40,381 nucleotides of DNA, taken from positions 1 to 40,381 of the forward strand of contig JASGCL010000013.1 of the NCBI GenBank assembly GCA_030054115.1, read 5' to 3'. The notes under the pieces were generated by a model. That model had not been told where the DNA came from. It did not search any database and saw nothing but the letters and a program-made list of their open reading frames with translations. This document shows positions 5,033 to 7,078 of the stretch, in pieces. Within the stretch, counting starts at the first letter, position 1; every line of letters starts with the position of its first letter. The DNA is from Hydrotalea sp. Lineage in GTDB: Bacteria > Pseudomonadota > Alphaproteobacteria > JASGCL01. A program made the translations under genes and the position numbers.

Positions 5033-7078
5033 ATGAGCAATAAGACCGCATACCGCGCAGACATTGATGGCTTGCGCGCCATTGCGGTGTTGTTGGTTGT
5101 TGGCTTTCACGCATTTCCCTATATCATCAGAAATGGTTTTATCGGGGTTGATGTTTTTTTCGTTATATCTGGTTTTTTAATCACTGGCATTATTCTGCAA
5201 GGATTGAACAATAATAATTTCAGCTTTGTTGAATTTTACAGCCGTCGCGTAAGGAGGATATTTCCTGCGCTGATTATTGTTTTAATCGCGGTGCTGGTTT
5301 TTGGCTATTTTTATTTATTTCCCTATGAATACAAACAGCTGGCAAAGCATGCTTTCGGCGGCACAGCTTTTATATCAAATTTCTTTTTCTGGAATGAAGT
5401 CGGTTATTTTGATAATTCCGCCAATACCAAACCATTGCTCCATTTATGGAGTCTTGCCATTGAAGAACAATTTTATATTATTTTTCCTTGCCTATTGTTT
5501 TTGTTATACAAAAGAAAGGTTGATTTATTGGTAGCGCTCGTAATTCTTTGGATTGCCTCCTTTGGATTTAATATATGGGAATACAAACATAATCTCACCG
5601 CAGATTTCTACTCACCGCTCACAAGATTTTGGGAAATTCTAACGGGTGCTATTTTATCTTATTTATCCCTACAGAAAAAAAATAAGCACCTTATTAACAA
5701 TGATTTTATCGCTAATATCATGTCCTTGGCTGGTATTACTATTATCCTAGTAAGCGCGTTACCACATGGGTTAGTTCGGGGGGGGGGGGGGCACCCGGGC
5801 ATCAGTGCGGTGCTTCCCGTTTTGGGTGGCGCAATGCTTATTGCTGGTCGTGGTGCCGCCAATAAGATATTGAGTCACAAATTCTTTACCTCCATCGGTC
5901 TTATCAGCTACCCGCTTTACCTTTGGCATTGGCCTATCTTGTCTTATATGACCATCTTAACTAGTAACTTTGATTTAAAGTATAGCACGACCATGCTGTA
6001 CCTATTACATATTTTTCCGACAGAAAGTATCTACCTTCTAAATAATATTATGACATTGTTATATAAAATTGCGGCTATAGTCGTCGCATTTTTATTATCT
6101 TATATAACCTATCAATATATCGAGAAAAAAATAAGGTCAGGCAAAAGTCAAAAGTCAAAAACCATGATGCTTGCCATTATAATGGCCGTAATATCTATAG
6201 CCTCCATCATTTTATATAAATTTACACCAGCAATAACTAAAAATAGTGGCAACCTCTATCAATTACACTATTTTTTTAGCGACGATAACCGCAGGGTGGA
6301 CCAAGCATGTTTGGACTATGTTGGAATAAAATTTTATAACAACGTTAATGCAAACAATGGCAATAGCTATTATTGTAAATTTAACAACATGCATAGCAAG
6401 ACCACTGTGGCTTTATTAGGTCATTCTCATGCTTTTGCTACGTATGATGGGGTGGCAAATTACTTAGCCAAAAAAAATATTAATACTTTTTTTATAACTA
6501 ATGACATCTATATTAAAGGAAGCAATAATACATGCGTTCAGGGTATCTTGCCTCCTTATAGACCATCATTGACTAGCAATGAAAAAAATATCTGTGATTC
6601 GTCAATGAAAAAAATATTAGATATATTGCATAACAAGAAAGATATTAAAAATATCTTTATTACTGATTATCCTTTTTTTGACCATGACGTCGACCGCGAC
6701 CCTTCCCCTCGATTGTTAATTAAACATCTAATCCAAGACAATAAAAAGGTTTACCTAATTGCGCATTATCCTACTCTGCGCAACGATCCTAGAAATTGTA
6801 TCACTTCACGACCGCCTTATAATAAAAGCTCAATGGTTGATTGTAGTTTTTTGGCAGACCATAATTTTGCCGCCATTTCATCAATCGAGAAGAGTAACAA
6901 TGTAACAATTATTGACCCTACACCCGCTTTTTGCCCAGAAAGAATTTGCAGTGCTTTCTCTCCGCAGGGTATTCTTCTATATTCAGATTGGCATCATCTT
7001 TCACAGGCTGGTAGCCAATTTCTTGCAGAAAATGTTCTTGCCCCTTACCTTGATAAAATAGCCAAAGAAAATCGTTAA
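5033..7078 (+). CDS. OafA-type membrane O-acyltransferase with SGNH domain
   Basis: A 681-residue protein of the acyltransferase-3/SGNH class that O-acetylates surface polysaccharides such as O-antigen. Residues 7-365 are the multi-pass acyltransferase-3 domain: the start ADIDGLRAIAVLLVVGFH carries the catalytic His26, followed by GVDVFFVISGFLI and LWSLAIEEQFY. Residues about 455-675 form the periplasmic SGNH domain, with block I as GHSHA (Ser465; the more common form is GDSHA) and block V as SDWHHLS (Asp652, His654/655). A run of 14 G (5778-5791) encodes RGGGG at 249-253 and is in frame here. The gene is more AT-rich than its neighbours, suggesting transfer. The ATG lacks an obvious ribosome binding site, but the N-terminus matches the family. 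Confidence 0.93.
   Translation: MSNKTAYRADIDGLRAIAVLLVVGFHAFPYIIRNGFIGVDVFFVISGFLITGIILQGLNNNNFSFVEFYSRRVRRIFPALIIVLIAVLVFGYFYLFPYEYKQLAKHAFGGTAFISNFFFWNEVGYFDNSANTKPLLHLWSLAIEEQFYIIFPCLLFLLYKRKVDLLVALVILWIASFGFNIWEYKHNLTADFYSPLTRFWEILTGAILSYLSLQKKNKHLINNDFIANIMSLAGITIILVSALPHGLVRGGGGHPGISAVLPVLGGAMLIAGRGAANKILSHKFFTSIGLISYPLYLWHWPILSYMTILTSNFDLKYSTTMLYLLHIFPTESIYLLNNIMTLLYKIAAIVVAFLLSYITYQYIEKKIRSGKSQKSKTMMLAIIMAVISIASIILYKFTPAITKNSGNLYQLHYFFSDDNRRVDQACLDYVGIKFYNNVNANNGNSYYCKFNNMHSKTTVALLGHSHAFATYDGVANYLAKKNINTFFITNDIYIKGSNNTCVQGILPPYRPSLTSNEKNICDSSMKKILDILHNKKDIKNIFITDYPFFDHDVDRDPSPRLLIKHLIQDNKKVYLIAHYPTLRNDPRNCITSRPPYNKSSMVDCSFLADHNFAAISSIEKSNNVTIIDPTPAFCPERICSAFSPQGILLYSDWHHLSQAGSQFLAENVLAPYLDKIAKENR
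5778..5791 (+). repeat. Poly-G tract (14 G) inside the acyltransferase gene
   Basis: Fourteen consecutive G follow a C within an AT-rich coding region. Losing one G moves translation into a frame that ends at TGA 5871-5873; gaining one ends at TAA 5863-5865. Either change would remove the rest of the membrane domain and the SGNH domain. This is the standard arrangement of a contingency locus switching by slipped-strand mispairing. Confidence 0.9.

Follow-up and report, generated by a model that had tools for sequence, protein, structure and literature searches.

The run of 14 consecutive G residues inside an AT3-SGNH O-acyltransferase gene of an uncultured alphaproteobacterial lineage is probably a contingency tract that would act as an ON/OFF switch of the enzyme. 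We give this reading a probability of roughly 0.6, based on the anatomy of the gene, the rarity of such runs within the genome and analogy with known phase-variable genes. The gene was found in a contig of 40,381 nucleotides, the whole of which is referred to here as the window, and its features are listed below in window coordinates.

5033 to 7078, forward strand: AT3-SGNH O-acyltransferase gene (681 amino acids; frame open at 14 G)
5057 to 6112, forward strand: Acyl_transf_3 domain (PF01757), which contains the tract (residues 9-360; 110.7 bits against a cut-off of 31)
5778 to 5791, forward strand: G14 tract, covering the final two positions of the Arg249 codon (CGG) and the codons of Gly250-Gly253; it falls in the loop that joins transmembrane helices (TMH) 7 and 8 (AlphaFold2 model for the loop)
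5863 to 5865, forward strand: TAA ending the 15-G frame (277-amino-acid product)
5871 to 5873, forward strand: TGA ending the 13-G frame (279-amino-acid product)
6362 to 7036, forward strand: SGNH domain (PF19040), absent from both off frames (residues 444-668; 90.9 bits against a cut-off of 27)

The tract consists of exactly 14 G with a C at either end, is read as CGG GGG GGG GGG GGG CAC, and is located mid-gene, away from the start codon. The original prediction had placed it within the acyltransferase-3 domain of an AT-rich gene, consistent with the Acyl_transf_3 match and with a GC content of 0.366 for the gene compared with 0.476 for the window. Its account of the reading frames is also correct; 14 G maintains the 681-residue frame, and the other two frames end at the TGA and TAA listed above, 72-82 bases 3' of the tract. 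The computed frames show that 11, 17 or 20 G would restore the full-length product, as at 14 G. As both alternative frames stop early, any single slip deprives the protein of its final membrane helices and of the SGNH domain, and the gain or loss of one G truncates the product to 277 or 279 of the 681 residues, respectively, consistent with a contingency locus. The same anatomy would be displayed if slippage occurred during transcription or translation of the G14 mRNA, each cell then containing a mixture of full-length and truncated protein, such that the dose is tuned and cells are not switched. Long homopolymers are known to cause RNA polymerase slippage. Slippage on the mRNA, however, would not preclude DNA-level switching as well, and as the explanation of the locus it has little probability.

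Only one tract length, 14 G, is represented in the single assembly. Homopolymers are error-prone, the genome is assembled in 91 contigs and, in other genomes, many long G runs are found at contig ends, as poly-G sequencing artefacts predict. An assembly or sequencing error, in which the real tract has another length, or is shorter and does not vary, is nevertheless very unlikely, as the run is situated 5.8 kb into a 40 kb contig and has unique flanks. Furthermore, 14 G gives exactly the frame in which the AT3 homology continues on either side of the tract, the downstream HPGISAVLPVLGG aligning with FPGWWALLPVLGA of the family.

The enzyme encoded at 14 G looks active, a view that reflects retention of the invariant AT3 residues (Arg15, His26 and others) and of all three residues of the SGNH site, in which Ser465 and His655 are invariant and Asp652 is nearly invariant. 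These three residues match, by motif, the OafB triad Ser430/Asp618/His621 (PMC9833829). The GDSH block, however, reads GHSH (window 6419-6430), with His replacing Asp464 at a position that is nearly invariant in 40 aligned sequences. This substitution could mean that the SGNH domain is weakened, and it is among the observations consistent with a neutral origin of the tract, in which slippage lengthened a run in the flexible loop encoded by a weakly constrained gene of horizontal origin, and the run now mutates with no selected switching. We consider such neutral expansion unlikely, although it is the most substantial of the alternatives. Also consistent with it is the genomic context. The gene is AT-rich and stands alone among housekeeping genes, its neighbours encoding RNase E/G and, convergently, an NlpC/P60 protein, which suggests that it was acquired by transfer. 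The 150-base stretch that starts in the tract (window 5783-5932) has a GC content of 0.55, compared with 0.28-0.47 in the rest of the gene, possibly reflecting a conserved Pro/Gly-rich motif or a mosaic origin.

The structural setting of the tract was explored with an AlphaFold2 model built from 40 sequences (mean pLDDT 83.5, pTM 0.81); the query sequence matched none of the PDB chains. In the model the SGNH fold is preceded by ∼11 long helices, and residues 243-256 form a loop connecting helix 224-242 with helix 257-271, here taken as membrane helices 7 and 8, in agreement with the proposal that the tract occupies a loop between membrane helices. OafB has 11 TM helices and a periplasmic SGNH domain (PMC9558356; PMC9833829). 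By comparison with this topology the SGNH domain of the query is likely periplasmic, and the TMH7-8 loop would face the same compartment if the N-terminus is inside, as in OafB. The segment running from the preceding helix up to the conserved FPG motif is 20 residues long in 83 of 103 relatives, 19 in 13, 18 in two, 21 in three and 25 in two; thus 99 of the 103 have 19-21 residues, while the query has 23. The three extra residues coincide in the alignment with the Gly-run region, and the simplest reading is that a short G run grew in frame by about nine bases, or three Gly codons. The expectation that additional Gly would be tolerated at this point was conjecture, and is not favoured by the strong constraint on loop length in the family. 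The sequence of the loop stretch carrying the tract does vary across the family, as would be anticipated if expansion were neutral.

The G14 tract is the only run of at least nine in the window. Six nine-G matches were observed compared with a mean of 0.80 in shuffles that preserved the tract's own dinucleotides, and six were reached in one of 100 shuffles. In the genome (1.68 Mb in its 91 contigs, 95.5% complete) there are six G runs of at least nine bases (14, 11, 10, 10, 9 and 9) and 11 of exactly eight. Geometric extrapolation from these 17 runs of eight or more, using a per-base extension of 0.2-0.35, predicts 0.001-0.03 runs of 14 or more, an estimate that depends on the assumed rate. 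A run of 14 is thus unlikely under a geometric tail, and the tract is an outlier in its own genome, which argues against neutral expansion. So too does its purity, as a coding tract with no synonymous interruptions is unlikely to last without selection unless its origin is very recent; GGG represents 15% of the Gly codons in the other genes of the window. Conversely, the remaining runs of 9-11 are in ordinary intergenic DNA, apart from one C9 that falls within an ordinary coding frame, and this distribution is consistent with neutral growth. The G14 tract, the longest G run of the genome and inside its sole AT3 gene, is the only coding tract of ten or more, while the G11 sits upstream of a gene for a probable outer-membrane protein. 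The check for further G tracts suggested with the original prediction yielded five more, of 9-11 bases, and no repertoire of coding tracts.

The source genome can be assigned to the Alphaproteobacteria, an assignment supported by its match to alpha_tmRNA (RF01849, E 2e-50), a model matched by Caulobacter alone among 14 control genomes. Long tracts in surface-modification genes had been described as much less reported in this class than in Campylobacter, Helicobacter and Neisseria. Long G runs as such are not rare in its sequences, as G runs of at least 12 were present in 126 of 385 alphaproteobacterial genomes. The run alone is thus less exceptional than first thought. Many of the sampled runs are in GC-rich genomes, in intergenic DNA or at contig ends, and some are in coding frames. 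Two AT-rich or moderate-GC alphaproteobacterial genomes, G332 (locus L128) and G361 (L147), contain G13 in open coding frames that are candidate contingency loci. The L128 frame encodes an outer-membrane-like protein with no Pfam match, and G332 has runs of at least 12 on at least three contigs. A further G13 is inside an OMP_b-brl frame (L139), and a C12 is embedded in an AIR-synthase-like (PF00586) reading frame in genome G220 (L123), an unusual site for a tract.

Among relatives of the query, AT3 genes from other alphaproteobacterial families (L017-L037) contain no run of eight or more, indicating that the tract is not ancestral. No close relative has a tract at the same position, a further observation in keeping with neutral expansion, and a scan of viral contigs with the 5' flank of the tract returned no match. 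Long in-frame mononucleotide runs are, however, shared with AT3-SGNH genes of three betaproteobacterial metagenome-assembled genomes; the encoded proteins are 34% (L100), 32% (L064) and 32% (L092) identical to the query protein. In L100 an internal C13 follows an in-frame ATG at a distance of six codons. The runs of L064 (C14, 11 bases from the contig end) and L092 (C22, 89 bases from the contig end) are at a place matching that of L100, ∼10 residues before YRPDIDGLRA. These betaproteobacterial tracts are poly-C and occupy the gene's 5' end, in contrast to the poly-G in the TMH7-8 loop of the query. Long G runs are numerous in all three genomes, in part at contig ends, and for this reason only L100 provides good support, and that from L064 and L092 is weak. 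Across 80 loci and their flanks, three of the five runs of at least ten fell within AT3 genes, which account for 20% of the bases (one-sided binomial p 0.056), an enrichment that is suggestive only, since two of the runs are close to the end of a contig and tracts abound in all three genomes.

In Neisseria, a mononucleotide G or C tract of at least nine in or near a gene is the cut-off used to define phasomes (PMC7371114), a length exceeded by the G14 in its coding frame. Phase variation of AT3 enzymes is itself established. Haemophilus influenzae oafA, a lipooligosaccharide (LOS) O-acetyltransferase (PMC9558356), and Neisseria meningitidis Lot/Lot3, likewise an LOS O-acetyltransferase (PMC3526765; PMC9558356), are both phase-variable AT3 proteins. 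The query resembles oafA in being an AT3 family O-acyltransferase, but it is from another class, its AT3 domain is fused to SGNH and its G14 is positioned midway through that domain. Switching has been reported for oafA and for Lot/Lot3, the latter from a betaproteobacterium and with a known LOS substrate, whereas for the query it is predicted. In domain order, AT3 followed by SGNH, the query matches Salmonella OafA and OafB. Rhamnose acetylation by the OafB homologue of S. Typhi is phase-variable (PMC9558356; PMC9833829), although oafB switching is epigenetic, through DNA methylation, and involves no repeat tract, in contrast to the G14 of the query. A limited search of the titles and abstracts of open-access literature returned no homopolymeric-tract phase-variable locus in Alphaproteobacteria. 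The query is thus probably a further case of an already known phenomenon, in a lineage for which no such report was found.

The G11 noted above is located on contig C65 (L118, 168-266; genome G000), directly 3' of TTGAC and ∼80 bases upstream of the gene for a 272-amino-acid protein whose N-terminus resembles a signal peptide and which ends in Phe, and appears outer-membrane-like, with no Pfam match. A paralogue on contig C21 (L186) reads TTGACAACTATTAGTTT where the C65 copy reads TTGAC-G11-CTATTGTAAGTTT. The G11 is possibly a promoter-spacer tract; a scan of the site for the sigma-70 consensus gave no match. It is tempting to view the lineage as carrying poly-G surface contingency loci of two kinds, a translational switch in the AT3-SGNH gene and a transcriptional switch at the G11 after a TTGAC -35-like box, but this broader proposal is tentative and rather doubtful. 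Three other G/C runs (L119 8090, L121 7905 and L181 2422) are in or beside a dispersed intergenic element with a 'gccgacgagggataaaaa' or 'gccacaaag' stretch.

The proposal that the acyltransferase is phase-variable draws on an anatomy that fits a translational ON/OFF locus, on the three residues by which the loop is longer where the tract lies, on the placement of the longest G run in the sole AT3 gene and on the tracts in betaproteobacterial AT3 genes. Counting against it are the single assembled length, the mid-gene position of the tract, the lack of a repertoire of coding tracts, the GHSH substitution and the presence of MutS and MutL. In the mechanism envisaged, DNA polymerase slippage on G14 would lead to the gain or loss of G at a frequency that is likely high. 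Tracts of 11, 14, 17 or 20 G would specify the full inner-membrane AT3-SGNH enzyme, which is predicted to transfer an acyl group to a surface glycan (ON), and other lengths a truncated protein of ∼275-281 residues that is presumably dead (OFF). The population would then be a mixture of modified and unmodified cells, which may be of benefit against phages, host defences or competitors. Loss of mismatch repair was considered as a cause and rejected, as the genome encodes MutL together with MutS in one long frame, a flagged TGA being the end of that frame. Slippage may thus be partly repaired, and switching would not require a lack of mismatch repair.

If the G14 tract is indeed a contingency tract, repeat slippage that randomly switches the acylation of surface sugars, a phenomenon known chiefly in mucosal pathogens, would extend to an uncultured alphaproteobacterial lineage. 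The read-length distribution of a single tract would then provide a marker for phage or host selection in metagenomes.
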